The notes beneath the pieces were generated by a model. The model saw only the letters and a program-made list of their open reading frames with translations. It was not told the DNA's origin and did not search any database. From positions 934,753-998,752 of the forward strand of contig NC_079908.1 in the NCBI RefSeq assembly GCF_024868665.1: a stretch of 64,000 bases of DNA. The letters run 5' to 3'. The first letter of the stretch is position 1. Each line of letters starts with the position of its first letter. Source of the stretch: Triplophysa rosa (lineage: Eukaryota; Chordata; Actinopteri; Cypriniformes; Nemacheilidae). A program made the position numbers and the translations under genes. Below are positions 1 to 59,904 of the stretch, piece by piece.

Positions 1-138
1 GTCAGCCGTTTCCCTCCAGGACTTCGGAAGGATCCTATTTCTCACGAACTTTCACGTTTTTCACCTGAGTGTCCTGAGTTAAATAAATATCTTGTTACCC
101 GCACTTGAATCCGTGTGTCTTTCTACCCAGCCCTGACA
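1..138 (+). repeat. 5' LTR, downstream part (copy A)
   Basis: Identical to 4561-4698 over its whole length and ends in the canonical CA. It carries an AATAAA polyadenylation signal in 'gttaaataaatatc'. The gag start codon lies only 20 bases downstream. No match to a tRNA 3' end is apparent just after the LTR, so the primer-binding mode is unknown; self-priming as in Tf1/sushi elements is possible but cannot be tested with part of the LTR missing. Confidence 0.9.
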
Positions 139-157
139 GAACGATCGCACCAGGAGG

Positions 158-1099
158 ATGGATTCAGCGGGAACAGATCCTCTTCGGGTTGCTGTGACCC
201 AACAGGGTGTTTTGCTTGGACAGCAAGTCAACCGGATCAACACAACAGCACAAGATGTCCAGGTATTGAACACTCAGGTCTCCGAGCTTGCAGCCTGTCT
301 GCAGGCGATGCAGGTCGAGACTGCCGCCCAGACGGCACGACTTCAGCTGGGATCCGTCCGCGAACCTGAGCCACATGTCAACAGTCCTCCGGTATACCAT
401 GGTGACCCTAACTCTTGTCGAGCATTTTTATCACAATGATCCCTAGTCTTCAACCTACAACCCCGTCGCTACACGTCTGAAGCAGCGAAAGTGAGTTTCG
501 TCCTAACCCTTCTGGCCGGTAAGGCCCGGGAATGGGGAATGTCGGTGTGGGATGCCCAATCCCCCTGCTGTGCATCCTTCGAAGAGTTCCGGAAGGAGAT
601 GGAGAGGTTGTTCGACCGCTCGGTTCATGGCGATGAGGCCGCCACCAGACTCTCTCGATTGAAGCAGGGCCGTGCATCCATTACAGAATACTCCATCCAG
701 TTCCAGACCCTCAGTGCTGCCTGCAAGTGGAATGCTCCAGCCCTGCGAGCCCGGTTCCTGGAGGGACTCAGCGACGCCATCTCGGATGAGCTGGCGGTGA
801 TGGAGGTTCCAGAGGATCTGGAAGGACTCATCTCTCTTGCTCTACGGGTTGAGGCGCGTATGGAGAACCGCCGGAGAAGGCGATTAATGGACAATCCCTG
901 GCGCCGTGTGGAGCCTTCCCTCTCCTCTACCCCCGCTCTCCCATCGTCGGATCCGGGGGATCCCGAACCTATGCAATTGGGGAGACTTCGCCTCACACCT
1001 ATGGAGAAGCAACAACGGCTATCCCAGGGGCTCTGCCTTTATTGCGGCAAGTCAGGACATTTTGCCATCAAATGTCCAGTAAAAGCCAACACCCACTAG
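158..1099 (+). pseudogene. Gag of gypsy copy A, one nonsense codon
   Basis: The frame opens at ATG 158, the first ATG after the LTR, and runs to TAG 1097-1099. It is interrupted by one TGA at 437-439, after which homologous-looking sequence continues in the same frame. The middle (about 490-860) has the helical capsid pattern of gypsy Gag, including 'ARFLEGL' and 'LISLALRVEARM'. An arginine-rich stretch follows. A CCHC zinc knuckle (C-x2-C-x4-H-x4-C in 'CLYCGKSGHFAIKC') lies near 1036-1078. Gag would package element RNA in cytoplasmic particles. Pol continues in the -1 frame; I see no canonical slippery heptamer in the overlap. Confidence 0.9.
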
Positions 1100-4000
1100 T
1101 AGATCGGAGGATACTAGTGGGTAAAATTCTCTGTCCTCCTGCTGGTTCATCGCACACCCGACTACCCTTCAAAATAGAGTTCCAGGGGGTCACACGCTCC
1201 GGCCTTGCCCTAGTGGATTCGGGGGCCGAGGGCAACTTCATTGATTCAGTCACGGCGCGGAGGTGGCAGATACCGTCCGTCCCTCTCTAGAGTCCAGTTT
1301 CCGGTTGGTCGCTGGGTGGCGCTCACCTCCTCACTGTCACCCATTGCACTCCTAGTGTAAGTTTATTTATTTCTGGTAATCATCACGAGAACATCGTGCT
1401 GTACATACTCGAGTCCCCCAACAATGTTATTGTACTCGGGCACCCGTGGTTGCTACAGCATAGTCCTCATGTCGATTGGGATAATAACACAATTTTTTCG
1501 TGGTCTCCGTCTTGTCATGTGTCTTGTCTTGGTCCTGCCTTGTCTCCTGTCTCTGTCTCTTGTGCTCCTCAGGTCGAAGCCGGCAACCTGGCCTCTGTCC
1601 CGGCGGAATACCACGAACTCGGTGCGGTCTTCAGCAAGTCTCGGGCCGTATCCCTCCCTCCTCATCGCCCCTACGACTGCGCCATAGACCTCCTCCCCGG
1701 CACTTCTCCTCCCAGGGGTCGTTTATTCTCCCTGTCCGGTCCTGAGAGAGAGGCCATGGACCAGTACATTCGAGATTCTCTTCAGTCTGGACTCATTCGC
1801 CATTCCTCCTCCCCTGCTGGCGCTGGGTTCTTCTTCGTTCAGAAGAAGGACGGCTCTCTGCGTCCCTGCATCGATTACCGAGGGTTGAACGACATAACTG
1901 TTAAGAATAGGTACCCCCTACCTCTTATGTCTTCTGCCTTTGATCTCTTGCAGGGAGCCAAGGTCTTCACTAAATTAGACCTCCGCAACGCCTACCACCT
2001 TGTTCGTATTCGAGAGGGAGATGAGTGGAAGACAGCATTTAACACACCTACGGGACACTACGAGTATTTGGTGCTTCCTTTTGGTCTCACCAATGCTCCA
2101 GCTGTCTTCCAGGACCTGGTCAATAGCGTTCTGGGTGACATGATCAATCAGTTTGTCTTTGTGTATCTGGACGATATCTTAATATTTTCCCCCTCTCTCC
2201 AGGTACACACCCAACACGTCAGACGGGTTCTTCAGCACTTGTTAGAGAATCGACTCTTTGTCAAAGCGGAGAAGTGCGAGTTCCATGCCGAGTCTGTGAC
2301 GTTCCTGGGGCACATAATTTCTACTACGGGCATTCAAGCTGATCCCGCCAACATTGAGGCAGTCGCCAAGTGGCCCATACCCGACTCCCGCAGGGAGGTG
2401 CAGAGGTTCCTGGGGTTCGCCAATTTTTACCGGCGCTTCATCAGGAGCTTTGGTCAGATTGCTGCACCCCTTACGGCGTTGACCTCTTCTAAAGTATCGT
2501 TCAGGTGGAATCAGAATGCACAGGTGGCCTTTGATACCCTTAAGTCTCGTTTTATCTCTGCTCCTGTTTTATCTGTTCCAGACCCTGATCGCCAGTTTAT
2601 TGTCGAGGTCGACGCGTCAGGCGTTGGAGTAGGCGCTATCCTGTCTCAGCGGTCGGCTCACGATGGGAAGATCCATCCCTGCGCCTATTTTTCCCATCGC
2701 CTCAGCCCGGCAGAACGCAATTACGACATCGGAAACAGAGAGTTGTTGGCGGTCAAGCTAGCATTGGGTGAGTGGCGTCACTGGTTGGAGGGAGCAGCGC
2801 AACCCTTCCTGGTCTGGACGGATCATAAGAACTTGGAATATGTCCGTTCGGCCAGGAGGCTGAGTTCTCGCCAGGCCCGCTGGGCACTCTTTTTTGGCCG
2901 TTTTAACTTCACCCTTTTGTTCCGGCCTGGGTCGAAGAACACTAAGCCCGATGCCCTGTCCCGTCTGTTCGAATCCCCGGATGAGAGGCTTTCGGCCGAT
3001 GCCATCCTCCCCACAGGTATGGTGGTTGGGGCCGTCTCATGGGGAGTCGAACAGAGGGTAAAGGAGGCTGGTCGGGGGGTGCAAGTGCCAACGGGGTGTC
3101 CAGGGGCAGGTTATTCATTCCGGAGGCGCTGCGTCCTGAAGTCCTGCAGTGGGGTCACTCATCCAGACTGGTTTGTCATCCAGGGATTCGGAGAACGAAG
3201 GCCTCCATTCGCCAACGTTTCTGGTGGTCGTCATGGATCACCGATGTCAGACAGTTCGTGTTGGCCTGCCCGACGTGCGCCCAGTCTAAAGGTAGTAATC
3301 AACCTGCCGCTGGTCTGCTCCATCCCCTCCCCATTCCCTCCCGCCCCTGGTCACACATCGCCCTGGATTTTGTTACTGGGCTTCCCCCTTCTGGCAGTAA
3401 CACCGTGGTGCTTACGGTGGTGGACCGTTTATCCAAGGCGGTTCATTTTATTCCCATTCCCAAACTTCCCTCATCACGGGAGACCGCTCAACTGCTCATT
3501 GATCACGTCTTCCGGCTCCATGGCTTGCCGGTCAACGTGGTCTCTGATAGGGGTCCGCAGTTCACCTCCCGGTTCTGGAAGGAATTTTGCAGACAGATCG
3601 GGTCCTCAGCTAGTCTGTCTTCTGGTTTCCATCCTCAGACCAACGGGCAGTGCGAGCGGGCCAACCAGGATCTTGGAAGAATGCTCCGCTGTCTGACATC
3701 CGCTAGTCCGAGTTCTTGGAGTCAACAACTTTCCTGGGCAGAATACGCCCACAATTCCCTCCCGTCGGCTGCATCAGGTTTGTCCCCGTTTGAGTGTTCT
3801 ATTGGTTATAACCCACCTCTCTTCCCTGCACAGGAACCCGATGCTGTGGTACCGTCGGCTCTGGCTTTAGTCCAACGTTGCCGCCGCAAGTGGCGGAGAG
3901 CCAGAGAGGTTCTGACCCGAGCCTCTAGACGTACCAAGACAGCAGCCGACCGTCACCGACTCTCTCCTCCTACCTACGTGTGTGGTCAGCGAGTGTGGCT

Positions 4001-4475
4001 TGCCACTAAGGACCTACCTCTCCGGGTGCCCTCTCGTAAGCTGGCACCCAGGTTCATTGGGCCTTTACATATCACCAAGGTGGTTAATCCGGTGGCTGTC
4101 AGGCTCAGACTTCCCCCCTCCCTCGGTCGGGTTCACCCTGTTTTCCATGTCTCTCGGGTTAAACCTGTGCTTTCCTCCCCTCTTAATCCTGCCTGTAGCC
4201 GACCACACCCCCCACCACCACGTCTCGTGGACGGCGCTCCTGCTTATTCAGTTCAGAGACTACTGGACGTGCGTCGCCGTGGTAGGGGGGTGCAGTATCT
4301 AGTGGACTGGGAGGGCTATGGCGCAGAGGAGAGGAGTTGGGTACCATCCCGGGACATCTTGGACCGCTCGTTGATTGTGGATCTCCATCGGAGACGAGGT
4401 GAGCGCCACCTGCACCTTGGATTCCATTGGATTTCCTGCCTCTCCGCACCTACCCCTGAACTCTTCTGCCACTGA
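1042..4475 (+). pseudogene. Pol of gypsy copy A: protease, RT, RNase H, integrase, chromodomain
   Basis: Protease: 'LVDSGAEGNFID' near 1210-1245 carries the D-S-G active site. A TAG at 1288-1290 breaks the frame, which then resumes unchanged. RT: '[17 protein letters not shown]' near 1830 and the catalytic '[10 protein letters not shown]' near 2158-2187. RNase H: '[17 protein letters not shown]' near 2600 and '[10 protein letters not shown]'. A frameshift near 3100 moves the rest into another frame. Integrase: an HHCC finger near 3160-3290, then the D,D-E triad in 'ALDFVTGLP', 'VVSDRGPQF' and 'GQCERANQD'. A C-terminal chromodomain ('[18 protein letters not shown]', about 4290-4350) would direct integration to marked chromatin. 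With the stop and frameshift mended, the length would match a full gypsy Pol. Confidence 0.93.
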
Positions 4476-4560
4476 TCCGTCCTACGGTGTGGTCCTTAGG
4501 ACATCTACTTACCTATCCGGCTGACGCTGCCGTACACCGGGATTCCCGGTTGGCCTTGCA

Positions 4561-4698
4561 GTCAGCCGTTTCCCTCCAGGACTTCGGAAGGATCCTATTT
4601 CTCACGAACTTTCACGTTTTTCACCTGAGTGTCCTGAGTTAAATAAATATCTTGTTACCCGCACTTGAATCCGTGTGTCTTTCTACCCAGCCCTGACA
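4561..4698 (+). repeat. 3' LTR, part identical to the visible 5' LTR (copy A)
   Basis: 138/138 identity with bases 1-138. The LTR must begin upstream of 4561, because the match is limited only by the window edge. The 85 bases between the Pol stop and 4561 probably belong to the LTR or a short leader. Confidence 0.9.
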
Positions 4699-5747: not shown

Positions 5748-6342
5748 TGTCATGGTCCTATCCTTCTTGTCTTGAAATTCCTAGTTTTGTGGACAGGGTC
5801 ATGACAGTACCATGTCTTGTGTGGAGACACATGGCTGTTTGTTATGACATTGCGCCACGTGTCTTCTTGTCTCGTGCTTTGGCCCCGCCCCCTTGTTTCC
5901 CCGTCATTGTCCCATTAGTGTTTCATTCCCCTCACCTGCCCCGTGTAATCTTCCCGTTAGTGTTCATTCCCTTCACCTGCCCATCACCTGCCCTGAATCA
6001 TCATCCTTATTAGTGTCCCTATATAGTTCCCTTCTGTTCATTATCCCGTGTCGGTTCATTGTTTGTTTGCCTCCTTGTGCTTCCCCACTCAAGTACCCTG
6101 CCTCGTGTCTTGTGTGGAATTAATGTGTTCCTGGTTGCTGTACCCTGTCGAGTTGTGGACTTATTATTTTACATTTTTTGGACCTTGTTTGTTTGCCCCC
6201 TCGTGGGTAATGTTCAGTTTGTGTTCGGTTTTGTTTAATCTTGTTCTCCGCATCGTGGGTTTTTGTTTTATTTAAATAAAGTCTTTGTTTAACCCTTCAC
6301 CTGCCTGCGCTTGGGTTCTGCCTCACACCCCGTTTCTTGACA
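5748..6342 (+). mobile_element. Solo LTR, 'TGTCATG' family (595 bp)
   Basis: Starts TGTCATGG, ends TTGACA, and is flanked by the 5-bp duplication gttat (5743-5747 and 6343-6347). It shares family landmarks with 29131-31279, 39788-40306, 49582-50147 and 55972-58617: a 5'-terminal hairpin, a 'ggccccgcccc' box, 'cacctgcc' motifs, a TATA-like 'cctatatag', 'catcgtgggtttttgtttt', AATAAA, and a terminal 'cctgcctgc...ttgggttc' block. No internal region is present, so it probably arose by LTR-LTR recombination. Confidence 0.88.
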
Positions 6343-21455: not shown

Positions 21456-21507
21456 GTTTAATGTTAATTTATCTTTGAACAAACTATTGTCAGTAAATTA
21501 CATACAT

Positions 21508-29130: not shown

Positions 29131-29510
29131 CACTCGTTATCTTCCTTTGTTTGTCTCCCTTTAAAATGCCCTCGTGTTCATTGTCCTGTGCTCGTTCGTT
29201 GTGCTTTGTTCTTGTACTTGTGCTTGTTCCTGTGAGATGTACCACTGTGTTCCTGTACATGTTTTCTCCGCCAAAGTCAAGTCTTAGTAAGTGTTTAGTC
29301 TAGTGTTAGTTTTTTATAGTTTGTCAAGTGTTGTATTTAGTCTTGTTAGTTTAATGTAGACAGTTTATGTGCCTGTCTTCCCCTGTTATCGTGTCTTGTT
29401 TTCCCCATCGTGGGTTTTTGTTTTGTTCAATTGTTTATTAAAAGTCTTTTGTTTAACCCCTTCACTGCCGCTGCCTGCATTTGGGTTCTTCCACCACGCA
29501 AACCCTGACA
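29131..29510 (+). repeat. 5' LTR, left-truncated (gag-only copy 1)
   Basis: Matches 30983-31279 from 'tcgttatcttcctttgtttg' to '...cgcaaaccctgaca', and includes the 'catcgtgggtttttgttttg' block missing from the 3' LTR. Confidence 0.88.
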
Positions 29511-29544
29511 TGCCGAACGAGCCCTATTGAACCCAGCAGGCAGC

Positions 29545-30534
29545 ATGAAGGATTCACAGCCCTCCCTGCGGTCCCATCTGTTGTTCGGGATGCGTCAGAA
29601 GGACCCGGAGGTACGGATTTTCGCCTGGGACTTTTTGACAGTGGCAGTGGGGACGAGTTTCAATCAGGCCGAGCTGAAGGTTATTTTCAACAGCGGCCTC
29701 ATTGAACCCCTCACTGCCAGGGAGATGAGGATGCTGAAGCCGTTGGACTTCCGGGACATGGTGGATTACCTCGGCAACCGGGAATAAATCTGGTCTTCAC
29801 CTCGAGCCGGGTCCCCTCCTCCTTTGGCATCGATCCTAGAGGGAATTGCTCTGGGCGTGGTGGCCCTGGGGACCTCAGCACCTCTCACCTCAAGCTCCGC
29901 TGTTCCCGAACCTCCTTCCAGCTTCCGCGGCAAGCAAGGAAGGAGCGAGTCCTGGGGAACGTCGTCGGACTCCTCCAACCCGGAGCTAGCCGCGCCCCTT
30001 ACCGCTTCCCTGCAGCCGGCCACCAATCCGGTGGTCCGGTCTAAAAAGAAGAAGCCGAGGAAGGGGTCTCGGCATCCTGCCCAGCAGCTGGCGATACAGC
30101 CAGTACCCAGTCCGGCGCAGCCGGTGTCCAGTCTAGTGCCCAGTCCGGTGCAGCCGGCATTCCAGCCGGGACAGCCGGTGTCCAGTCCGGTGCAGCCGGT
30201 GTCCAGTCCAGTATCCAGTCCGGTGCAGCAGCCGGCGTCCCAGCCCGGTGCAGCCGGCATCCAGTCCGGTGCAGCAGCCGGCGTCCCAGCCGGCATCCAG
30301 TCCGGTGTCCAGTCCGGTGCAGCCGCAGTCCATTCCGGTGTCCTGTCCTGCCCAGCCGGTGCAGCAGCCGGCGCCCTAGCTGGTGCAGCCGGCCTTCCAG
30401 CCGGTGACTCAGCCGGTGACTCAGCCGGCAACGCAGCCGGTCCCCAGCCTTGTGCGGCCAGCCTTCCAGCTGGCGCCCAGCTTTGTCCCGCCGACGTTCC
30501 AGTCGGCAGTTCCCCCCAGGACTTCCCCCACTAA
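29545..30534 (+). pseudogene. Gag-like protein with Pro/Gln/Ser/Val repeat domain, copy 1
   Basis: ATG 29545 starts 'MKDSQPSLRSHLLFGMRQKD'; TAA 29785-29787 breaks the frame, which then runs on to TAA 30532-30534. Residues 1-80 align with the N-terminus of the 56581 protein: 'FNQAELKVIFNSGLIEPL' against 'FGETELKVIFNCCLTESL'. A basic 'RSKKKKPRKG' follows near 30040, then repeats built on VQPVSSP-like units (30085-30480). After a frameshift near 30520 the tail homology continues in another frame. Probably dead. Confidence 0.82.
30085..30480 (+). repeat. Coding minisatellite of gag-only copy 1
   Basis: Imperfect units of about 21 bases such as 'cagccggtgtccagtccggtg', all multiples of three. Clearly fewer units than in the copy at 57117-57720. 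Confidence 0.88.
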
Positions 30535-30788
30535 GTCCCCCAGAACTCCGCGCCCTCAAGCGCACTCAGGGACTAAGACTGCTCCCCCCATGAACTCTTG
30601 TTTTGTCCCACCCCCCCTCCCATGTTTGTTATTTTTATTGTCCCACCCAAACCCGTTTATCATTCTTGCTTGTTTGCCCCTAGTTATGTTTTCCATGTTT
30701 GTCTGGTTCTTGTCACTGTCCCAGTCTGTCTTGTCTTGTTAGTCAGCCCCTTGGTGAACACCTGGGGGTGTTCATTAAGGGGGGGGTC

Positions 30789-31279
30789 TATCATGGTCCT
30801 GCCTTCTTGTTCATGATTTTCTAGTCTTGTGGCAGGATCGTGACAGATCCCTTATGTTTAGTGTGAGAAAGTCATGGGTTGTTTACCTTTGACATCCCAT
30901 GTGCCTTCTCGTGTCTCGTCATTGGCCCCGCCCCTCTCGTTTCCCGTAGTGCTTCCCTGCCGTGTCTTATGTTCCTCACCTGCCCCTCGTTATCTTCCTT
31001 TGTTTTTCTCCATTTAAAATGCCCTCGTGTTCATTGTCCTGTGCTCGTTCGTTGTGCTTTGTTCTTGTACTTGTGCTTGTTCCTGTGAGATGTACCACTG
31101 TGTTCCTGTACATGTTTTCTCCGCCAAAGTCAAGTCTTAGTAAGTGTTTAGTCTAGTGTTAGTTTTTTATAGTTTGTCAAGTGTTGTATTTAGTCTTGTT
31201 AGTTTAATGTAGATCTTTTGTTTAACCCCTTCACTGCCGCTGCCAGCATTTGGTTTCTTCACCACGCAAACCCTGAACA
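30789..31279 (+). repeat. 3' LTR of gag-only copy 1
   Basis: Starts TATCATGG, with the normal TG mutated to TA, directly after a G-rich tract. It retains the 5' hairpin and 'ggccccgcccctc', and ends '...ccctgaaca' with an inserted A. About 100 bases are deleted near 31213. Confidence 0.85.
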
Positions 31280-47235: not shown

Positions 47236-47407
47236 TGTGGTGTTTTGCAATTGAACCTCTAGAGGGCAGTATGGCATTAAGTGTTCATGTTGAGAAAAGT
47301 GAAGGATAACGAGAAGAAGTGTTCTGGCAGAGTGGTATCACATGTGTGAAATAAAATAGCTCGAGTATTTCCATTGCATCTTTATTGACTAACCTGAGGA
47401 CACAACA
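47236..47407 (+). repeat. 5' LTR of gypsy copy E (172 bp)
   Basis: TGTGGTG...ACAACA. Contains AATAAA-like 'aaataaaatagc'. The leader 'aattgacgacg' follows. Confidence 0.93.
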
Positions 47408-47418
47408 AATTGACGACG

Positions 47419-48705
47419 ATGAGTTCCGTACCTGCGCCTGTACCTTTTCTGCCTTGCAGTGGAGAGCCTGCGATTCCTTTCGGTACGTGGCGGAAAATGT
47501 TTGAGAACTATTTGCTAGCCATAAATGCTACGGGGCAAGCATGGCCTGATGCCAGAAAACATGCTATCTTGCTACACAGCATGGGTACTGAAGGTCAACG
47601 GCTGTTTTACACCATACCTAATACTGTAACTACGTTCGATGATGCAATGGCAGCGTTAGAGAATCATTTTGTGCCTAAAGTCAACGTAGTGGTGGCGCGA
47701 CACCGCTTTCGGCAACGTTCTCAACGTGCGGATGAAACGATTACACAGTTTTTGACTGCTTTGCGAGACTTGGCCTCATTGTGTGCATATGGTGACATGG
47801 AGAGTGAGATGATTCGGGATCAGCTGGTTGAACGATCATACGCCCCAGCAGTGCGAGAAAGACTACTGTTAGAGCTGTCACTGACGCTGGATTCTGCTAT
47901 CACGATTGCGAGTCAGGTGGAATAAGCACTATCGAATTTGAATATACTGGCTGCGCAAAGCTCAGTTCAAGCTGTGCCATCCAAAACCTTCCGTCATCAT
48001 AAGACGAGCATGCACCGTCCTGTTGGAGCAAAACCTGCTGCCAATGCCATACAAGGAGCGACTCGCATGTGTTACAGTTGTGGAACTAAAACCCATCTGG
48101 CTAATGCGACTGATTGCTCTGCTACTCGGGCCAAATGCCGTTCTTGCGGAAAAACTGGACATTTTTCTAAGGTATGTCGTTCTTCTAAGGATGTTAGAGA
48201 AGTAGTCCCTGAAGTGGTTGTCCTCTTTACAGATACTACTACTGTTTCTGCAGACAAGCTATTATGCAATGTTCAGATTACTACTACAGAGGGACAGTCC
48301 GTTGACACGGAGTTAGTTGTGGACACAGGCTCATCTGTGTCAATTCTGCCTGAGGTCATTTACAACAGATACTTTAAGGACTGTTCGCTTACTGATCCTA
48401 AAGTGAAACTGGGTACATGCTTGAAAGAGGCCATTCCGGTCCTCGGATGTTTACGTTCGGACGTTTCACTGAATGATGCTGTAACTTCTGCTTGCTTCTA
48501 CATTGTCAAAGGTGGCTCTGCCCTAATGGGTGTGGATTTAATTCGAGCTCTGAACTTCTCTTTCCATTTCGGTGCTGCACCTAAATCAGACGAATTACAT
48601 GCAGTTGTAGCTGTGACCTCTCCAGCCCCAGATGCTTCCGGGGGTTGTGTGAAAGGCTTTGTTCATAAACCTACAGTCAAACCGAATGCTACACCGGTAC
48701 GTTAG
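47419..48705 (+). pseudogene. Gag-protease of gypsy copy E, one nonsense codon
   Basis: ATG 47419 (11 bases after the LTR) opens a frame broken only by TAA 47923-47925 before it resumes to TAG 48705. Gag: 'TWRKMFENYLLAINATG', 'RHRFRQRSQRADETITQFL'. There is one regular CCHC knuckle ('CRSCGKTGHFSKVC') and one irregular ('CYSCGTKTHLANATDC') near 48067-48180. Protease: 'LVVDTGSSVSILP' near 48316 has the D-T-G active site. The frame ends by frameshift near 48700, where the RT lead-in begins in another frame. Confidence 0.9.
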
Positions 48706-51700
48706 AAGTTACGTCGGCTTCCATTCTCAGTATGCCAAGCTGTTTCTATTGAGCAAAGGCATTATTGAAAAAAATGATTCATCCCCGTGGATCTCCCCTA
48801 TTGTCGTAATGGCAAAGAAAGACAGAAAAATACGTTTATGTGTGGATCTGCGTGAACCGAATAAGGCACTCATTGTGGACAGTCACCCTCTGCCACACAT
48901 GGACAAACTCTTACATGACCTTAGGGGTGCATCAGTATTCACTACAATTGATCTCGCGGCTGCGTTCCATCATCTTCCCTTACATGCCGCTTGCCGGGAC
49001 ATCACCGCTTTCATCACACACGACGGCCTCTTCAGATACTGTCGGGTTCCATATGGCCTTGCTTCTGCACCGGCGGCATTTCAAAAGATGATGGAATCTG
49101 TTCTGAAGGGCGTGAGGGGAGTTCGGAACTATTTGGATGATGTCATTGTGTACGCTGCTACGCAGGATGAGCATGATGCAACACTGCGCACTGTCATGCA
49201 ACAGCGACAAGTGCAAGTTCAGACAGACTTCTTTAGAGTTCTTAGGGCACGTCGTTTCGAAAGACGACATTTCTCCCGATGATGAGCACCTATCTGCGAT
49301 CATTAACGCCCCTGCACCACACGACATTGCTTCCTTCGCTCGTTTTTGGGACTGATATCGTGGTACAGCAAATTTCTGCCTAATTTTGCTTCTACTGCTG
49401 AACCATTATGTGCATTGTTGCGAGATGTATCGGAGACTACATTCGAATGGACTGTGCCTGCTGATCGCAGCTTTAAATAACTGAAAGATCTGCTTTCTAA
49501 AAGTCCAGTGCTCGCGCTGTTCGATCCATTCCTTCCCACTATAGTGTCAACAGACGCTTCTGATTATCGGCTGGGGGGTGTTGTCGCGACTCTGCCTTAT
49601 CTTGTCATGGTTTTCTTAGTCTTGTGGCAGAGTCGTGACAAAACCTTATGTTTTGTGTGAGAAAGCCATGGGGTGTTTATCTTTTGACATTCCATGTGCT
49701 TTCTCGTGTCCTGTCATTGGCCCCGCCCCTCTCGTTTCCCATATTGCCTCCCTGCCGTGTCTTATGTTTTTCACCTGCCCCTCGTTATCTTCCTTTGTTT
49801 GTCACCCTTTAAAATGCCCTCATGTTTCATTGTCTTGTTGCTCGTGCATTGCGTTCTACGTAACTTTGTATCCAGTGTGCCACCGTTGTGTTTCCCTGTC
49901 TAGTCAATGTACCTTGTTCCTGCTGTGAGTAAATGTTTATCTAGTTCATGTCAGTTTAGATTTAGTGTTCTGTTAGTCTAGTTAGTAGTTTATTGTTCCT
50001 GTTAAGTCTGTTATTCTTATTCCCCTTGTCTTTGTTATTTTACCCCCGCGTGGGTTTTTGTTTTGTGTTTATTGTTTAAATAAAATCTCTGTTAACCCCT
50101 TCAACCCCGCCTGCCTGCAATTGGGTTCTTCCTGTAAATTCATGACAGGTGTTTTGACACAACTCCACAAAGACAATGTTGAAAGGACTGTTGCGTTTTC
50201 TTCCAGAACTCTTACGGCTGCTGAAAGAAAATACTCTATGGTCGAGAAGGAAGCGCTGGCCTGTGTGTGGGCAGTAGAAAAGTGGCGGCTGTACTTATGG
50301 GGTCGACACTTCACGCTGAGAACTGACCATCGTGCACTCACTACATTGCTGGCGACAAAAGGCATTGGCCGTGCGGGATTGTGTGTCGCTCGGTGGGCGG
50401 CGCGCTTGCTTTGCTTTACTTATGATGTCATATACCACCCTGGGACTCTTAATTGCGCTGCCGACTGTTTATCCAGATTACCATTGCCAGCACAGTCGGA
50501 TGATTCCGTGGAACCAGACATGGTTGCTTTTGTGTCTGGCCTACCTACTTTCTCTTTGGAGGATTTTTGCTCCTTTGGAAGTCTGTTCGGAGTTGGCCTT
50601 ACTGCGTGCACAGATTGGGCGGCGCTGGCCAAAAAATTGTCAGGAGCTGGATCCATTGCTGGTGCCTTATTTTCGTATTCGGGACAAACTGTGTGTTGAT
50701 GGTGCTCTAGTGAGGAGAGGGGAACATCGTGTCATCGTTCCTTTTACATTACGCACGAAACTGGTACACTTGGCGCATGAGACGCACCAAGGGATCGTCC
50801 GTACCAAACAGAGGCTGCGTGAATTATTCTGGTGGCCTCAAATGGATGCTCAAATACAGTCTACGGTCTCCTCTTGTCTAACCTGTCAACTAAATGACAA
50901 ATCAGCTAAACCAGCCCCTGCACCTCTTCAGCCTGTCAGCTTTCCATCGGAGCCGTGGCAGAAACTGGGAATTGATATAGTGGGACCTTTTGAGTGTGGA
51001 CCGTCTCACTGCCGTTTTGCCATCTCTCTAGTGGATTACCATAGTAAGTGGCCAGAAGTGGCATTTACCCCAAATGTTACTGCAGAGGTAGTTACCAAAT
51101 CCTCAGGGTGTCATGACCGACAACGGCCCTCAATTCCTGGCCACGGTCTTTGAAGATTTTTTGAAAGAGAGGGGTATAAGTCACATGTGTAGTTCCTTGT
51201 ACTACCCCCAAGGGAATGGTGCTGTGGAGCATTGGAACCGAGTTCTGTCAGAATGCATCCTTTCTGCTGTACAAAGAGGGCTACCGTGGAAACAGGTAGT
51301 GACTGAGTTTTTGCAAACCTACAGAGCTACACCACACAGTACTACTGGAGTGTCCCCGTCTGAACTCCTGCACCATCACAGCGTACAAAGCTGAATGTCT
51401 TTCCTGTGGGCCCCAAGAGTGACAAGTGTGCTCAGGTAAAAGCTGCTGTGCGTACCAAACAACTGAAAAGCAAAATGTACACAGACAGGAAACAGGGAGC
51501 TAAGTGTCACACTTTCTAAACAGGAGACCAGGTGAGAGTTAAAAAGCCTACTCATGTGGGAAAAGGAGTTCCCAAGTTCTCGCCACCCCTGGAAATTGAG
51601 AGACAAATTGGAAACAACACTTTTGTGTTGAGTGACAACAAGAAATGGAATGTTTCCAAAGTGACACGTTTCACAGGCCCTGCTGTCATTCAGCGTGATA

Positions 51701-51735
51701 ACTCACAATCACAGGGGACATTTGAGGAAGAGTAG
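48700..51735 (+). pseudogene. Pol of gypsy copy E (RT, RNase H, integrase), split by a solo LTR
   Basis: RT from 'GIIEKNDSSPWISPIVVMAK' to catalytic 'RNYLDDVIVYA' near 49120-49150; a deletion and frameshift follow at about 49205. 'STDASDYRLGGV' begins RNase H at about 49548 and is cut by the solo LTR. It resumes at 50148 ('FSSRTLTAAERKYS', 'RTDHRALTTLLA'). Integrase: finger 'HLAHETHQGIVRTKQRL', 'CLTCQ', then 'LGIDIVGPF', 'MTDNGPQFLA' and 'NGAVEHWNRVL' supply the D,D-E residues in three frames. The C-terminal 'WNVSKVTRFTGP' ends at 51735. Confidence 0.9.
49582..50147 (+). mobile_element. Solo LTR, TGTCATG family (566 bp), inside RNase H of copy E
   Basis: TGTCGCGACTCTGCC...CATGACA, duplication ggtgt at 49577-49581 and 50148-50152. 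Removing it restores the RNase H reading across the junction. It carries the 5' hairpin (49582-49596 with 49626-49640), 'ggccccgcccctctcg', 'gcgtgggtttttgttttg' and AATAAA near 50082. Confidence 0.93.
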
Positions 51736-51970
51736 TAGAGTGAGTAGACCACCTGCGTGATTGAAGGACTTTGAATTGGAGTAAATGCATGAGACAAATG
51801 TTGTTGGCTGTGGCTATAACTGTGTTCATGTTTGAATTATACTTCTGAAATGTTGTTGTATTATAATGTTCATCTACCTGAATTAAGGCTGTAATTGTTG
51901 GTGTATATATACACACATAAGAGAATTAACATATATGTGTTATGAAGGAATCTTCTGTTAAAAGGCGAAA

Positions 51971-52137
51971 TGTGGTGTTTTGCAATTGAACCTCTAGAGG
52001 GCAGTATGGCATTAAGTGTTCATGTTGAGAAAAGTGAAGGATAATAAGAAGTGTTCTGGCAGAGTGGTAACATGTGTGAAATAAAATAGCTCGAGTATTT
52101 CCATTGCTTCTTTATTGACTAACCTGAGCACACAACA
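51971..52137 (+). repeat. 3' LTR of gypsy copy E (167 bp)
   Basis: Matches the 5' LTR; a short purine tract 'aaaaggcgaaa' precedes it as the plus-strand primer candidate. Confidence 0.93.
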
Positions 52138-52348: not shown

Positions 52349-55281
52349 AAGATGGCGCCGAGTATGGCCGCCGTGTTGCGAGCTCCTACCAAACTTTGCA
52401 GTTTTTCATGTGTTTTACGGATTATTTCGCTGTTTTTCATACTGGATGTCTACACTCTTATTGCCTACGAAGACACACACTATTAGAAATCGGCTCCTCC
52501 GTCGCACATCGGAAACCGGACTTTGAGTTCTGTAATGCCGGCGCTTTGTTTACAAACACCGCAGCAGAGCCCTTTGTCTGGGCCACACGACTGCGACGAC
52601 GGACATGCAGCCGAAAAAGAGGGAAGAGAGCTGGCGTCCTTGTCAGACTGAGACGTCGTGCCTTTCGGCCTCCACTCCCTACGATTCTGCTGACCAACAT
52701 TCAGTCACTGGACAACAAACTCTGCGAACTGCGGGTGTGTATCTCCTACCAACGAGAAACAAAGGACTGCTGCATTATCTGCCTCACAGAAACCTGGCTA
52801 TCTGTGGAGATTCCAGATTCAGCCATCGAACTCTCGAGATTCTCCGTGCAATGCACGGACAGAATGAAAGAGCTAACAGGGAAAAGCAGAGGAGGGGGTG
52901 TTTGATTCTTTATTAACAACTTGTGGTGCGATGAGAGGAACATACACTCTGTTAGATCATTCTGCTCCCCTGATTTGGAATACCTCACTCTGCTGTGTCT
53001 ACCATACTTGCTCCAGCGGGAATTTACAGTGGTCATATTCACAGCTGTTTACATCCCCCCTCAAGCCAACACAGAACAAGCACTCAAGGACCTGTACGGG
53101 AGTATAAGCGAGCAGGAAACCGCACACCTAGAGGCAGCGTTCATTATAACAGGGGACTTTAACAATGACAACTTCAGGAAAATAGCCCCAAAATACTTTA
53201 AACACATCACCATAAACACTCGTGGCAATCGTGTTTTGGATCACTGTTATTCTCCCTTCCGGGATGCCTGAAAAATCCCTCCCCTGCCCAGCATTTGGCA
53301 AATCAGACCACTCATCCGTTCTGCTCAGAAACTTAAACGGGAAGCACCCACCCTCAAGACGTTTCAAAGCTGGTCAGATCAATCGGATTCTACACTGCAA
53401 GACTGTTTTGAACACGTTGACTGGGAGATGTTCCGGGCTGCTTCTGATGACGACATCGTGGTTTACACGGGCACTGTCACGTGTTTCATCAGGAAGTGTG
53501 TTGAAGACGTGGTGCCGACAAAAACAGTTCGCATCTTCCCCAACCAAAAACCGTGGATTAATAGCGATGTTCGAGCAGCCTTATCAGAGCCCACCTCTGC
53601 TTTTAAATCCGGAAACATGGAAGAACAAAAACAAGCCAACTGCAACTTCTGGAAAACCATTAAAGCCGCCAAACGACAATACAAAAATAAAATAGAAGGA
53701 CAATTTGACACCGACAATGCAAGAAGCATGTTGCAGGGCATTATTAATATCATGATTTTAATGACTTTAAACAAAACAACCGCTGTGAACATTGCTGCCT
53801 CTCTTCCGGACGAGCTCAATGAGTTCTACGGCCGTTTCAAAGCTCATAACACCGAGAGAGAGCTCCCGCGGCCGACGTAGAGGCGGCCACTACAATCTCC
53901 ATCTCTGTAGCGGATGTAACACGCTCTTTCCGCCGGGTGAACATCCGAAAGGCTGCTGTTCCAGATGGCATTCCAGGCCGTGTACTTAAAGCATGCGCAC
54001 ACCAACTAGCGGTAGTTTTAACAGACATCTTTAATCTCTCCCTCTCTCTGTCTGTGGTTCCCTCATGCTTTTAAACAGCAACCATCATGCCAATTCCAAA
54101 GATAGGTAAAACCACTTGTTTGAATGACTGGCGTCTTGTTGCTCTGACACCCATGTTCAGCAAGTGTTTTGAGAAGCTGATCAAAAACCACATCTGCTCT
54201 GTTCTGCCTGCCTCACTTGACCCTCTGCAGTTTGCATTCAGGAGCAACCGCTCCACTGATGATGCCATTGCTTTCACCCTACACACCGCTCTCTCCCATC
54301 TGGACAGTAAGAACACCTATGTGAGAATGCTATTTGCAGACTACAGCTAAGCATTCAACCCCATAGTGCCTGCTAGGCTTGTTATGAAACTCCAGACTCT
54401 GGGCCTAAACGAATCTTTGTGCAGCTGGATCCTGGACTTCCTGTCAGGCAGACGTCAGTTGGTCAGAATGGGTAACATTACCTCATCTCCGCTGGTCCTC
54501 AACACTGGTGCTCCTCAGGGCTGCGTTTTCAGCCCACTCCTGTACTCCCAGTACAGATGACTGTACAGCCACACACAGCTCCAACGTCATCGTCAAATTC
54601 GCCGATGACACGGCGGTGGTAGGCCTGATCACTGACTACGGTGAGACGGCCTACAAAGAAGAGGTGCATGCTCTGACACGCTGGTGCCAGGAAAACCACC
54701 TCTCACTCAACACCAACAAAACCAAGGAGCTGGTGGTGGATTTCAGGAGACAGAAGAGAGAACACACCCCCATCATCATTGACGGGACACCTGTGGAGCG
54801 GGTCAGCAGCTTTAAGTTTCTAGGAGTCCACATCTCTGAAGACCTCACATGGGCTGCTCAAACAGATGCAGTGCTGAAGAAGGCACAACAACGCCTCTTT
54901 TTCCTCCGGCGCCCGAGGAAATTTGGAATGAGTCCCCACATCCTCCACTCATTCTACACCTGCATTGTGGAAAGCATCCTGTCGGGCTGCATCACTGCCT
55001 GGTATGGAAATAGCAACAGCAGAAATAGAAGAGATCTACAAAGGCTAGTGCGAACTGCCCGCCTCACGGTAGGAGGTGAGCTTCCCTCCCTCCAGGACAT
55101 CTACACCAGGCGGTGCATGAGGAAAGCCCTGAGAATAATCAGGGACTCCAGCCACCCAAGCCATGGACTGTTCTCTCTGCTGCCCTCAGGCAGACGGTTA
55201 CGCAGTATCCGATCACGCACAAGCCCACTGAGGGACAGCTTTTTCCCTCAGACTATCAGGCTACTGAACACTCAGAACTAG
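52349..55281 (+). pseudogene. Endonuclease/RT ORF of the second LINE
   Basis: Endonuclease blocks: 'ILLTNIQSLDNKLCELR', 'CLTETWLSVEIPDSAI', 'FTAVYIPPQANTEQAL', 'IITGDFNNDNF' and 'GKSDHSSVLL'. A linker with 'QKPWINSDVRAALSEPTS' follows. RT: '[20 protein letters not shown]', '[19 protein letters not shown]', '[17 protein letters not shown]', catalytic 'KFADDTAVVGL' (54600), 'LSLNTNKTKELVVDFR'. C-terminus: 'SLQDIYTRRCMRKALRI', 'SHPSHGLFSLLPSGRR'. About six frameshifts or stops, for example near 52903, 53270, 53878, 54350 and 54557. The final stop TAG 55279-55281 is made by the hAT insertion. Confidence 0.88.
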
Positions 55282-55971
55282 TGCTGTAGTACTCGAGTCC
55301 GGACTCGAGACCTTTTTTTATGATCTCAGACTTGTCTTGGACTTGTTGGTATTTGCTCTCGGACTTGTCTCGGACTTGGTCATTGATCTCGCCAAATGTT
55401 CTAGTTGGTCTCGACCGAGTCCAGCTATATACAGTATATATTTTTTCTCCTTCAAAACAAAACATTGATAGAGCATGCTTCTTGTGATCTGAAAACTGTT
55501 GCAGACTCTTGACTCAAGAACGAGAGCCGCGTGTGTTCATAAGTTCTCTCTTCACACAGCAGTTCAGTTCAGTTCAGTGTGTGCTGTTGGTGTAACTAAA
55601 TAACTCCGGTATATTGGTTCAAGTCCTCGGGACTGTCATGCATGTGTAACCCCTGTAACTTTCACACTAAGGATGTTAGTGAGTGTTGCATTAATTTGGT
55701 ATTGCCCTTTAAGAGGGCAGAGCTAGGGTGTGCATGGAGAGAGCGTATCGGAAGAAAAATGCGATGAGAGAATATGCGTAGCGTGTGAGAATAGATCCAA
55801 TCTAACTTGATAAAGATTTTATTTGACTCTTATTGGAACATTTTCTTTGGGTTTATGTTTACCGTTAAATAATCAAGCTGAGAAATTTATGTGATATACC
55901 ATTGAGAGAGTTGCTGAAGTTGAAGATATATTCCTCATTTCTTTGTATTTCCAAGATGTTCTGGTGAGTGT

Positions 55972-56548
55972 TGTCATGGCTCTGCTTCCTTAGTCATGTT
56001 TTTCTTGGTCCTGTAGCAGAGCCATGGCAAAGCCCTAGGTTATTTGTGAGAAAGCCATGAGATGTTTGTTTTTTTGACATCGCATGTGTTTTCTCATGTC
56101 TTGTCATTAGCCCCGCTCCTCTCGTTTCCTTGTTACCTTTCCCTGAGTGTTTTATTACCCACACCTGCCCTGTGTCGTTATCCCTCATTTGTCTTACCTA
56201 TATATACCCTCTTGTTTCTTTGTCCTGTGCTCGTGGATTGTACTGCGTTGTGTATGTGCTTGTCGGAGTGTATGCCTTGTCTTCCCGTGTCCATACCTGT
56301 ATTACAGTTTTTATGCTCATGCTCGTGTTCCCGCTGTCCAGATCGTGTTTGTTCCAGTAAGTGTGTAGTTTAGTTCTTTTCCAGTGTCTTGTCAGTTTAT
56401 TTGATAGTTAGTCTATGTTATCCCTGTCTTTAATTTTATACCCCATCGTGGGTTTTTGTTTTGTGTTTTTTGTTTATAATAAAGCTCTTTGTTAACCCCT
56501 TCACCTCTGCCTGCCTGCATTTGGGTTCTCTTGCCACACACCTTGACA
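55972..56548 (+). repeat. 5' LTR of gag-only copy 2 (577 bp)
   Basis: TGTCATGGCTCTGCT...CCTTGACA. TATA candidate 'ctatatata' at 56199-56207; AATAAA in 'ataataaagctc' near 56479. The 5' hairpin is 55972-55986 with 56015-56029. Confidence 0.95.
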
Positions 56549-56580
56549 GAATATACGAGCCAGAAACGAACCCAGCAGTC

Positions 56581-58068
56581 ATGAACGGTTCCCTGCGAGC
56601 CCGCCAGAATTGTTTGTTGTTTGGGCTTCAGCAGGGGGATCGCAGGATAAGAGATTTCGCCCAGGAGTTTGTGGCGGCTGCGGGGGAGACTGAGTTCGGT
56701 GAGACAGAGCTCAAGGTTATTTTTAACTGCTGCCTCACCGAGTCTCTCAAGCGGGCCAAGGTGGAGATGTTGAGCTCCCCGTGGTTGGGTGACATGATCA
56801 GGTACGTGGTCAACCGGGATGATCCCTGGCCTTTAGTGCCAGACTGGGTATCCACTCCCTTGGATACCGTCCCGGAGGATCGCGTCCTGGCCACCCTTAC
56901 TCTGGGGAACTCGGCACCTCCATCCGCCTCACCCCTCGCAGTAACTCCACCACCAGCTAGCCTCCGTGGTAGGCGTGGACGGAGGGAGTCGTGGGACTCC
57001 CCATCCGACTCCTCCAACACGGAGCTAGTCGTGTCCGCCACCGTTTCCCTGCAGCCGGCCACATGTTCTGTGGGCCGGTCGAAGAAGAAGAAGCCGAGGA
57101 GGGGGGCACCACCCAGGCCTGTCCAGCCGGCGTCCAGTCCGGTGATGCAGCCGGCGTCCAGTCCGGTGGTGCTGCCGATGTGTTGTCCAGTGTCCAGTCC
57201 GGTGCAGCCGGCGTCCAGTCCAGTGCAGCCGGCGTCCAGTCTTGTGTCCAGTCCTGTGTCCAGTCTTTTGTCCAGTCATGTGTCCAGTCCGGTGATCCAG
57301 CCGGCGTCCAGTCCGGTGATCCAGCCGGCGTCCAGTCCGGTGATCCAGCCGGTGTCCAGTCCGGTGATCCAGGCGGCGTCCGGTCCGGTGGTCCAGCCGG
57401 CGTCCAGTCGGGTGATCCAGCCGGCGTCCAGTCCGGTGATCCAGGCGGCGTCCGGTCCGGTGGTCCAGCCGGCGTCCAGTCCGGTGCAGCCGGCGTCCAG
57501 TCCGGCGTCCAATCCGATGTCAAGTCCGATGTCCAGTCCGGTGTCCAGTCCGGCGCCCCAGTCGATACAGCAGCCGGCGTCAAGCCCTGTCCAGCTGGCC
57601 GTCCAGCCGGCGTCAAGCCCTGTCCAGCCGGCCTTCCAGCCGGCGTCAAGCACTGTCCAGCCGGCCTTCCAGCCGGTGTCAAGCCCTGTCCAGCCGGTCC
57701 CTAGTCCGGCAGCCAAGCCGGCCCTGGGGAGACCCCCAGGGTCAAGGACTGTCCCCCCCAGGACTCCCCCTAAGTCCCCTAGGACTACGCGCCCTCGAGC
57801 GCAGCCGGGGACTGGGACTTCTCCTTACCCCCATGGACTGCCCCCTATGGGCCCTGGTTTGGCCCCTCCCCCCTCCCATGTTTGTTGTTCTTATTGTCTC
57901 ACCCTAGTCCCTTTGTATTTTTGTCTTGTCTCCCACTTATTCTGTTTTCCATGTTTTGTCTGTTCTTGTCTTTGTCTCAGTCTGCCTTGTCTTGTCCGTC
58001 TACCCCTTGGTGAGCACCTGGAGGTGCTCATTAAAGGGGGGGCTTCTGTCATGGCTCTGCTTCCTTAG
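56581..58068 (+). CDS. Gag-like protein with heptad-repeat domain (495 aa), intact
   Basis: ATG 56581 follows the leader 'gaacccagcagtc', which is also conserved before the ATG of copy 1; stop TAG 58066-58068 lies inside the 3' LTR. Residues 1-85 ('LLFGLQQGDRRIRDFAQEF', 'FGETELKVIFNCCLTESL') have the amphipathic helix pattern of fish gypsy Gag capsid regions; this is inference. Residues 86-165 are Pro/Ser-rich with 'RGRRGRRE'. Residues 166-174 (RSKKKKPRR) could bind nucleic acid or be a nuclear localisation signal. Residues about 181-380 are 7-8 residue repeats, PVQPASS or PVIQPASS, predicted disordered. The end is Cys-rich and hydrophobic (about 435-480). No zinc knuckle. Probable role: packaging of element RNA in trans-mobilised particles. 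Confidence 0.75.
   Translation: MNGSLRARQNCLLFGLQQGDRRIRDFAQEFVAAAGETEFGETELKVIFNCCLTESLKRAKVEMLSSPWLGDMIRYVVNRDDPWPLVPDWVSTPLDTVPEDRVLATLTLGNSAPPSASPLAVTPPPASLRGRRGRRESWDSPSDSSNTELVVSATVSLQPATCSVGRSKKKKPRRGAPPRPVQPASSPVMQPASSPVVLPMCCPVSSPVQPASSPVQPASSLVSSPVSSLLSSHVSSPVIQPASSPVIQPASSPVIQPVSSPVIQAASGPVVQPASSRVIQPASSPVIQAASGPVVQPASSPVQPASSPASNPMSSPMSSPVSSPAPQSIQQPASSPVQLAVQPASSPVQPAFQPASSTVQPAFQPVSSPVQPVPSPAAKPALGRPPGSRTVPPRTPPKSPRTTRPRAQPGTGTSPYPHGLPPMGPGLAPPPSHVCCSYCLTLVPLYFCLVSHLFCFPCFVCSCLCLSLPCLVRLPLGEHLEVLIKGGASVMALLP
57117..57720 (+). repeat. Coding minisatellite of gag-only copy 2
   Basis: Units of 21 bases ('cagccggcgtccagtccggtg') and 24 bases ('gatccagccggcgtccagt' plus 'ccggt') repeated over about 600 bases. 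All units are multiples of three, so all six frames stay open; only the frame of 56581 is supported by flanking homology. Confidence 0.95.
58012..58046 (+). promoter_or_regulatory. Hairpin plus polypurine tract before the 3' LTR
   Basis: GAGCACC (58012-58018) pairs with GGTGCTC (58023-58029) around loop TGGA. The tract 'ttaaagggggggcttc' (58031-58046) follows and abuts the LTR. Copy 1 has GAACACC / GGTGTTC at 30756-30773, also followed by its G tract. The paired change G-C to A-T keeps the stem. Confidence 0.75.
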
Positions 58069-58617
58069 TCATGTTTTTCTTGGTCCTGTAGCAGATCCAT
58101 GGCAAAGCCTTAGGTTATTTGTGAGAAAGCCATGAGATGTTTGTTTTTTTGACATCTCATGTGTTTTCTCATGTCTTGTCATCAGCCCCGCTCCTCTCGT
58201 TTCCTTGTTACCTTTCCCTGAGTGTTTTATTACCCACACCTGCCCTGTGTCGTTATCCCTCGTTTGTCTTACCTATATATACCCTCTTGTTTCTTTGTCC
58301 TGTGCTCGTGGATTGTACTGCGTTGTGTATGTGCTTGTCGGAGTGTATGCCTTGTCTTCCCGTGTCCATACCTGTATTACAGTTTTTATGCTCGTGTTCC
58401 CGCTGTCCAGATCGTGTTTGTTCCAGTAAGTGTGTAGTTTAGTTCTTTTCCAGTGTCATGCCAGTTTATTTGATAGTTAGTCTATGTTATCCCTGTCTTT
58501 AATTTTATACCCCATCGTGGGTTTTTGTTTTGTGTTTTTTGTTTATAATAAAGCTCTTTGTTAACCCCTTCACCTCTGCCTGCCTGCATTTGGGTTCTCT
58601 TGCCACACACCTTGACA
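58047..58617 (+). repeat. 3' LTR of gag-only copy 2 (571 bp)
   Basis: Near-identical to 55972-56548; lacks a 6-bp 'ctcatg' repeat present in the 5' LTR. Confidence 0.95.
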
Positions 58618-58623
58618 GAGTGT

Positions 58624-59904
58624 ATTCTGCTTGTATATATTTATTTTTTGTCATTGTATCATCATTTGGAAAAAATACCAGTCAGAATGTGATTGTATTG
58701 AAGGATATCCCGCTACATTTTTGTGTGATTGTGATCTAAAGTTCATAAGATAGCGGCTAATAGTGCTGTGATGCTAGCTTTGCTAACTATGGTGAGCACG
58801 AGGTGTGCGATGCCATACTCATTGCTATTCTTCCCCCCCACAAGTTGAATTGAATTATTAACGATTTAGAATAATTTAATTAATTTTGTGCCTATTTCGT
58901 TGATGTAATAGAGTTTTGTCACTCTAGAAAAAAGGGGAAACTTTATATTAAAAAATATACATATACTGTACATACAGAATGTACTAATGCATTTTATATA
59001 TGTAATCTCCCTCATTAGGAATGGGTAAATGTTGTTATTAATTTGTAATGTATAATTGTTGCAGATTGGTTTTTATTTTGACCTTTTTGTTGGAGGACCA
59101 AAATTGGGACCTGAGTTCTCTGAGTGGTTTCCTCCTCAGCAGTGGGTTCGTTCGAGTGGATGTCTTCCAAACTGGGTTCACCTCTTCATCATCTCATCGG
59201 CTATCTACTCCTCAGTCTTCAGTTTTTTGTTCTTCATCTTCGATTAACTAAATGCCATTCCTAAGGGAGCGGTAGGACTGATATATATATTTTCACACAT
59301 TACACAGGGCTGTTTTTTTTCCCAAAGAACTCTGAACATTCCCCAAGTTTTGGACTTGATTCATTTCTACATGTACTGAATATGTTATACATTCCAAGTG
59401 TAATCAGTGTTAGAAATATTTTTGGACTAATGTACACTGTATTGTTAATTACATTCTTATATTTCTTTTCTTGACGTGCCGGGAAAAGGGAGAAATTTGC
59501 CTCACAATACATTTTCCTGGTTAATGTAACTTTTATGCGTGTGGTGTTACTTTATTTTATCATTATTATTCCTCTTATTCCTGATATTTAAAATCGTTCA
59601 TCTAACCATTGGGTGGGTAGCATACAGTGGGAAAAAAACCCAGGCTCCTTTGAGGAACTTAGACAATTCTTGATTTAGAGTTTGGTCGTACAGCCCTGAT
59701 GTTTATCATAAAGCCGGGGTTACACATGCCAGAAAGTGAAGAACTGAATTAATTTGTGGATAATATTAAGTGTTTACGGGAGACGCTAAACGCGAACAAT
59801 TCAGGTGAACTGGTTCGACCGGTTCACTTAAAAGAAAGAACCGGTTCAAATGAACGATTCGTCCGCGGCGCGAACTGAACAGCATCAATCATTCATCAGG
59901 CACG
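58624..59904. other. hAT interior without a clear gene
   Basis: Right-hand body of the hAT 55280-60460. Short open stretches, for example 59060-59250, show no recognised domain. AT-rich tracts near 58920-59000. Confidence 0.45.

Follow-up and report, generated by a model that had tools for sequence, protein, structure and literature searches.

How can a long terminal repeat (LTR) retrotransposon that carries none of its own replication enzymes be mobilised, and why would it keep a gene at all? This question is raised by element A, a 2646-bp element (55972-58617) in a 64,000-nucleotide stretch of the Triplophysa rosa genome (contig NC_079908.1, positions 934,753 to 998,752), referred to here as the window, in which both copies that serve to describe the family, element A and the broken copy B, are located. 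With a confidence somewhat better than even, we propose that element A represents a long-lived non-autonomous LTR family related to the Tf1/sushi group of Ty3/gypsy elements, whose RNA would be self-primed, whose enzymes would be supplied in trans and whose single protein, built on the C-terminal domain of a capsid (CA-CTD), would act as an RNA adaptor. Within this proposal the mobilisation in trans is very probable; the adaptor role seems plausible without being quite probable. As no reverse transcriptase (RT) or integrase was found that could be placed in the chromovirus clade, element A is described as related to or dependent on the Tf1/sushi group and not as a member of it.

Element A possesses the complete structure of an LTR retrotransposon, with paired TG...CA LTRs, a flanking duplication and a polypurine tract (PPT) beside the 3' LTR (Table 1). 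The two LTRs differ by 7 substitutions over 571 aligned positions and by one 6-bp indel, corresponding to about 0.4 million years at 1.46e-8 per site per year, a borrowed rate, possibly from another species, that has been applied to zebrafish endogenous retroviruses (PMC8672886). The flanking duplication could equally be one of 5 bp if the G after CA is the element's own; the solo LTRs C and D of the same group have duplications of this length. A single open reading frame (ORF) occupies the internal region; its stop codon ends 22 bp into the 3' LTR and the frame is free of stops across the whole internal region. All of this agrees with the original prediction, which had described a 2.6-kb element with near-identical LTRs, a 6-bp duplication, a PPT and one ORF of 495 codons. 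When the internal region was shuffled 1000 times with its dinucleotides preserved, the longest frame to stay open had 464 codons (median 172), compared to 498 observed. The composition favours an open frame yet explains the openness incompletely, and the length of the ORF is modest evidence for coding. Behind its N-terminal domain the protein continues with a basic linker carrying KKKKPRR and a repeat region in which Ser, Pro, Val, Ala and Gln are abundant.

Profile comparison indicates a relationship between residues 12-76 and the C-terminal half of the capsid of sushi-type Ty3/gypsy Gag. A comparison with gypsy capsid models had been suggested for this domain before, and it returned the CA-CTD (hhalign 94%, score 50), with 25 as the best score among 200 shuffles and with the match falling on the CTD columns. 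The homology was found separately in copies A and B. Support from predicted structure (AF2 model, Foldseek/VIA) is partly circular, and an AF2 model built from the two sequences was of low quality and gave no informative match in a fold search. A capsid N-terminal domain was not found in element A, as the homology sets in at residue 12 already and a leader of 32 nt offers no space for such a domain upstream; a motif scan of the ORF did not reveal a CCHC zinc knuckle either. The QG motif that corresponds to this region is found at residues 178-180 of two complete sushi Gags, and in the third one checked the pattern was not matched. Thus, the earlier label "gag-only" is appropriate in that the ORF is Gag-related and overstated in that only the CA-CTD could be found, with no N-terminal domain, zinc knuckle or protease motif. 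Seven of the 91 Gag matches are named, two from Cirrhinus mrigala, one each from Labeo rohita, Triplophysa tibetana and Naja naja, and two from an "Aeromonas MAG", which we take to be contamination.

Copy B, which had already been recognised as a degraded second copy with the same layout, a homologous N-terminus and the KKKKPR stretch, bears out this description, as its parts run in the same order as those of element A and the N-terminal 176 codons of both copies show 44.9% identity over 176 aligned positions, KKKKPR included. It is now broken. Roughly 200 bp are missing from the start of the 5' LTR, the 3' LTR is altered at its ends and carries an internal deletion, and the frame meets a stop at 29785; within the repeats the match moves to another frame (the latter by inspection). 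No trace of pol was detected in A or B by tblastn with six gag/pol pieces from the window, which produced a single match through LTR-derived sequence and a chance-level match (E 0.79); as tblastn spans all frames, a frameshift into a hidden pol was considered and dropped. The ORF of element A also contains no D[ST]G or [YF]xDD motif (motif scan), and the absence of protease, RT and integrase noted originally was upheld by tblastn, Pfam and motif scans. LTR identity between A and B amounts to 66-67%, which at the same borrowed rate corresponds to about 15 million years. Since two copies with LTRs this far apart share one layout, the pol-less arrangement has probably been inherited over a long time and does not go back to one recent deletion. 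Of the two solo LTRs of the group, C sits inside the pol of another gypsy element (about 47236-52137).

The comparison of the two copies further indicates that codons 1-176 are under purifying selection. From the 174 codons used, the ratio of nonsynonymous to synonymous differences per site (pN/pS) is 0.67 (codon bootstrap 0.545-0.84, 0 of 1000 at 1 or above) and the corresponding corrected ratio (dN/dS) is 0.55, while translating this DNA in its two alternative frames yields dN/dS values of 0.91 and 0.97. Codons 1-80 and 82-176 taken separately show 0.51 and 0.56, with 1.0% and 0.6% of the bootstraps at 1 or above, so that selection on the N-terminal codons, which the original prediction had singled out for this kind of analysis, is seen between the two copies. 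As copy B is now a pseudogene, the constraint during the active phase of the lineage may have been stronger than measured.

Searches for relatives gave few matches. For residues 1-87 no relative was found in viral contigs (6 pattern matches) or genome contigs (202 pattern matches), the LTR pattern gave no hit in either collection and the linker pattern none in viral contigs; residues 1-176 had no match in phages and the LTR none in plasmids. In protein searches, none of 217 candidates matched residues 1-110 at E up to 0.001, and two of 514 candidates matched residues 1-176 at E up to 10, both in the linker only (P0092 and P0093). One of them is LOC130555313 of Triplophysa rosa (56% over 71 positions), the other an unnamed protein with the source "lgn" (68% over 59). 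As the linker is present in two database proteins, the family probably extends beyond a single species. Two Rfam matches below the gathering threshold (E 0.23 and 0.57) were dropped.

Both copies also share a structure around the PPT. In element A the PPT, AAAGGGGGGG, is located at 58033-58042 and ends 4 nt before the 3' LTR, and it pairs with an upstream CCCCTT next to a hairpin core that reads TGAGCACC-TGGA-GGTGCTCA in A and TGAACACC-TGGG-GGTGTTCA in B, the CCCCTT/PPT pairing extending both. The predicted RNA folds are more stable than those of shuffled sequences in element A (49 nt, z -5.4, 0 of 200 shuffles as good; 77 nt after extension on the upstream side, z -2.5, 3 of 200) as well as in copy B (50 nt, z -4.4, 0 of 200; 78 nt, z -3.2, 1 of 200). 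As two sequences allow only one compensatory change, these data suggest a PPT that is held in a conserved hairpin. The core motif was found once elsewhere (19642), with no PPT in the adjacent letters shown.

The start of minus-strand synthesis might be encoded by the element itself, as the sequences suggest a primer binding site (PBS) complementary to the expected 5' end of the mRNA, similar to Tf1/sushi elements; this is clear in copy B and weaker in element A. Self-priming is described as widespread in the Tf1/sushi group (PMC10085805) and also for Tj1 (PMC4600332). When the whole LTR of copy B was considered, 5 of 2000 shuffled sites were as good for the 9-mer and 17 of 2000 for the 11-mer, and in a window fixed by the TATA box 9 and 13 of 20000, respectively. 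With the TATA-fixed window, element A gave 89 of 20000 shuffled PBS as good for the 11-mer and 1308 of 20000 for the 9-mer; this window, 24-46 nt from the TATA start, was chosen once the match was known. In a fold of the whole leader copy B forms the duplex of primer and PBS with a pairing probability of 0.75-0.79 per base. The signals in A and B are not independent, as the copies are related, and the mRNA starts are deduced from the TATA-like boxes. Priming by a tRNA was considered and rejected, as there is no TGG within the first 15 nt past either 5' LTR, a criterion applied with no comparison to a tRNA set. An LTR derived from a tRNA was rejected as well, since ARAGORN found no tRNA genes in 55900-58700, a result that a partial tRNA could escape.

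From this we infer self-priming as a working process, the kind of partner and the role of the protein as follows. The RNA of element A would start about 30 nt past the TATA box, its 5' end would pair with the site behind the 5' LTR and prime minus-strand DNA, and the hairpin-held PPT would prime the plus strand. As no pol remnant was found in A or B, this RNA would have to be copied by the enzymes of another element, all of which a complete relative might supply in trans, presumably inside its particles. The ORF protein might help the RNA of its own element to enter the partner particles, and the gene would be kept for this reason: the CTD would dock on the partner Gag through the interface at which capsids dimerise, and the rest of the protein, being basic and rich in repeats, would hold the RNA. 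An adaptor is the simplest account, as the retained domain is the one where capsid subunits pair. It could even be that element A belongs to a "satellite" lineage of vertebrates that has existed for millions of years with a single gene, encoding a free-standing CA-CTD with an RNA-binding tail that plugs a self-primed RNA into sushi-type capsids. We regard this extension as tentative and rather doubtful; if true, such a lineage would correspond, among retrotransposons, to satellite viruses with a minimal capsid decoy.

Several results weigh against our proposal, and they concern the 3' part of the ORF and the leader of element A. In codons 384-430 the substitutions between the copies are distributed over the codon positions as 7, 6 and 7 of 110, which gives no codon signal, and in the last stretch (57869-58046, about 60 codons) as 4, 14 and 9 of 176 together with single-base indels, unlike a protein. 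Moreover, with the whole LTR considered the primer match of element A is not significant (1997 of 2000 as good for the 9-mer, 1121 of 2000 for the 11-mer), and in its leader fold the duplex of primer and PBS has a probability of 0.0, the PBS pairing with 56321-56328. This pairing competes with the proposed self-primer, and directly before the stretch involved the 5' LTR contains an extra ATGCTC (56313-56318) that is missing from the 3' LTR. The 3' results would also fit an ORF in decay, a relic whose frame stays open owing to its composition, the protein being dispensable by now and the cis sequences (LTRs, primer site and PPT hairpin) being sufficient. Such a relic agrees with the open frames of up to 464 codons that composition alone yields and with the A/B identity of the DNA, which in MAFFT alignments is 82.2% after the repeats and 79.5% in the last stretch vs 60.0% in the CTD (84.5% for the last stretch vs 67.8% for the CTD with a looser aligner, 100 shuffles of the last stretch reaching at most 73.0%). 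The last stretch of the ORF is thus probably a cis-acting sequence, and the idea that the ORF is a conserved family trait is supported for codons 1-176 only and not over the full 495, with its tail unlike a protein and codons 384-430 without a codon signal. The pN/pS of the ORF frame, clearly under 1 for codons 1-176, the capsid homology detectable in each copy and the linker conserved in P0092 and P0093 are however difficult to reconcile with a relic, and we consider this explanation unlikely.

The main rival to the adaptor role is a protein that mainly interferes, joining the growing partner particle and damaging or limiting it while the RNA of the element rides along. In yeast the free capsid CTD of Ty1, p22/p18, restricts Ty1 (PMC8458377) and Drt2 restricts Ty1' (PMC10951436), and like these proteins that of element A is built on a capsid CTD lacking the N-terminal domain. 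The yeast proteins, which have been shown to restrict, derive from a subgenomic transcript or a domesticated relic, whereas element A is mobile and no gene other than that for the CTD protein was found in it. Blocking the partner would bring little gain to a parasite dependent on it, although this is an argument only, and the basic linker and the repeats exceed a minimal CTD, so that interference appears improbable to us, to the same degree as the relic. Quite improbable is a deletion derivative of a complete element, with other copies still having pol and the loss being accidental in the two copies seen here, in view of the common layout at 66-67% LTR identity and the negative tblastn result in both copies; this assessment covers the window, and complete relatives with such LTRs may exist elsewhere in the genome. 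The domain might finally be helical without any relationship to Gag, either new or derived from the host. No Pfam family matched the complete ORF with E up to 10, and an AvrM_N match of N-terminal pieces (E 0.08-0.31) stayed under the cut-off. BLASTP of the ORF domain against the sushi Gag of the window revealed nothing meaningful, the homology being visible by profile comparison only, and tblastn of this Gag against A and B gave nothing at E up to 1. A phmmer search against PDB returned only weak unrelated matches (best PadR-like, E 0.15), and a model built without Gags matched generic helical proteins only. A profile score twice that of the best of 200 shuffles, and placed on the CTD columns, makes an unrelated origin very improbable all the same. 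We therefore keep to the trans-mobilised element with an adaptor protein as the favoured reading.

LTR elements that encode gag only are already known from zebrafish and plants. Bik-1 and Bik-2 (BHIKHARI) of zebrafish, termed endogenous retroviruses, encode gag and neither pol nor env, and the 617-aa Gag of Bik-1 is described as combining a foamy-like coiled coil with a capsid assembly domain and a glycine-rich patch (PMC10996621). Compared by description, element A has only the sushi-like CA-CTD followed by basic and repeat regions. The earlier statement that no fish equivalent had been described therefore has to be corrected for gag-only families in general; for a Gag with a repeat domain it is uncontradicted, the Bik Gag being foamy-like. 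In TR-GAG elements of plants the LTRs enclose only a GAG domain, or GAG plus AP (PMC6022998), and those of element A likewise enclose a GAG-related domain only, recognised by profile comparison with no Pfam match; in contrast to them, element A is present in a fish, with the capsid CTD only, apparent self-priming and the PPT in a hairpin. With Tf1/sushi chromoviruses it shares the CA-CTD homology and, clearly in copy B, a PBS that could pair with the predicted start of the mRNA (PMC10085805). Helenus elements, which are terminal-repeat retrotransposons in miniature (TRIM) with tRNA-derived LTRs, include LTR-11_DR of Cypriniformes, and in animals they have been tied to Gypsy for their mobilisation (PMC10886601). 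Element A is also a non-autonomous LTR element of a cypriniform fish, but Helenus has tRNA-like LTRs and 1263 bp in its longest family, whereas element A has 2646 bp, an ORF and no tRNA according to ARAGORN. The 38 non-autonomous LTR families of Culex are listed with internal tandem repeats, no coding potential and primer sites of the tRNA type (PMC3286476), and the family of element A is similarly non-autonomous, with tandem repeats and no known complete master copy. The combination of a CA-CTD only, apparent self-priming and a PPT hairpin was not found among the open-access papers listed, most of them consulted as listings, with Repbase and most subscription journals outside this scope.

Non-autonomous LTR elements often retain cis sequences alone and few of them retain gag. 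The family described here appears to retain, under selection, only the part of the capsid that makes the dimer contact and that alone is a restriction factor in yeast. If true, nature would thereby provide a test of the effect, helpful or harmful, that a bare capsid CTD has on vertebrate particles and of how a non-autonomous element selects its own RNA, and the family may be raw material for capsid-derived genes of the host.

Table 1: Features of element A, copy B and related elements in the window (TSD: target site duplication; pI: isoelectric point).
Feature	Position	Strand	Details
5' LTR of element A	55972..56548	+	577 bp, TGTCATGG...TTGACA
3' LTR of element A	58047..58617	+	571 bp, TG...CA
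TSD GAGTGT, left copy	55966..55971	.	5 or 6 bp
TSD GAGTGT, right copy	58618..58623	.	
TATA-like TATATATA in 5' LTR of element A	56199..56206	+	
Putative mRNA 5' end / self-primer, element A, GCTCGTGGATT	56229..56239	+	30 nt past TATA start
Putative PBS, element A, AATATACGAGC	56550..56560	+	9 Watson-Crick pairs, 1 G-T, 1 mismatch over 11
Single ORF, 495 codons	56581..58068	+	ATG 32 nt past 5' LTR
Capsid C-terminal-domain-like region, residues 12-76	56614..56808	+	hhalign; AF2 model; Foldseek/VIA
Conserved Ser/Pro/Arg linker, residues 84-176	56830..57108	+	KKKKPR at 57082-57099; pI 10.4
Degenerate tandem repeats, QPASSPV-type units, residues 177-383	57109..57729	+	24- and 33-nt spacings
Post-repeat Pro/Arg-rich basic segment, residues 384-430	57730..57870	+	DNA well conserved in B; pI 12.0
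Pyrimidine-rich 3' segment	57871..58046	+	conserved as DNA, not protein; probable cis-acting region
Hairpin enclosing PPT of element A	58003..58042	+	arms 58011-58018 / 58023-58030; PPT pairs upstream CCCCTT
Copy B, same family, broken	29131..31279	+	truncated 5' LTR, stop at 29785, 3' LTR deletion
Putative self-primer of copy B, GCTCGTTCG	29190..29198	+	30 nt past start of TTTAAAA (29160-29166)
Putative PBS of copy B, CGAACGAGC	29514..29522	+	9/9 Watson-Crick with self-primer
PPT hairpin of copy B	30747..30786	+	compensatory G-C to A-T change vs A
Solo LTR C, same LTR group	49582..50147	+	66% to A, 72% to B 3' LTR, TSD GGTGT
Solo LTR D, same LTR group, more divergent	5748..6342	+	55-56% to A, TSD GTTAT
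Sushi/Tf1-type chromovirus, nearly complete	1..4698	+	gag, RT-RNaseH, integrase with Tf2-1-like SH3 and chromodomain

The chromovirus at the beginning of the window illustrates what kind of element might serve as the partner. Unlike element A, which is without enzymes, it encodes Gag, RT, RNase H and an integrase with chromodomain. Its own match of primer and PBS is weak (12-mer 138, 11-mer 455 and 9-mer 541 of 3000). Its first 138 bases match 4561-4698 at 100%, the 5' LTR being cut by the window start, and its pol is arranged in two overlapping frames of 801 and 496 aa, counted from stop to stop.

Other parts of the window contain further repeats and a probable host gene. An open frame of 849 codons from stop to stop on the minus strand (18919-21468), with endonuclease and reverse transcriptase Pfam domains, is apparently the intact ORF of a non-LTR retrotransposon. 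Part of another such element is probably represented by an open frame upstream of element A (54409-55281), in which Pfam recognised ALKBH8_N and, under the cut-off, a reverse transcriptase. An exon-like open frame at 12871-13566 has a Pfam match to KCT2 (keratinocyte-associated) and probably belongs to a host gene, and at 23619-24059 a tandem repeat array is found with a period of about 70 bp and copies that are about 95-98% alike.

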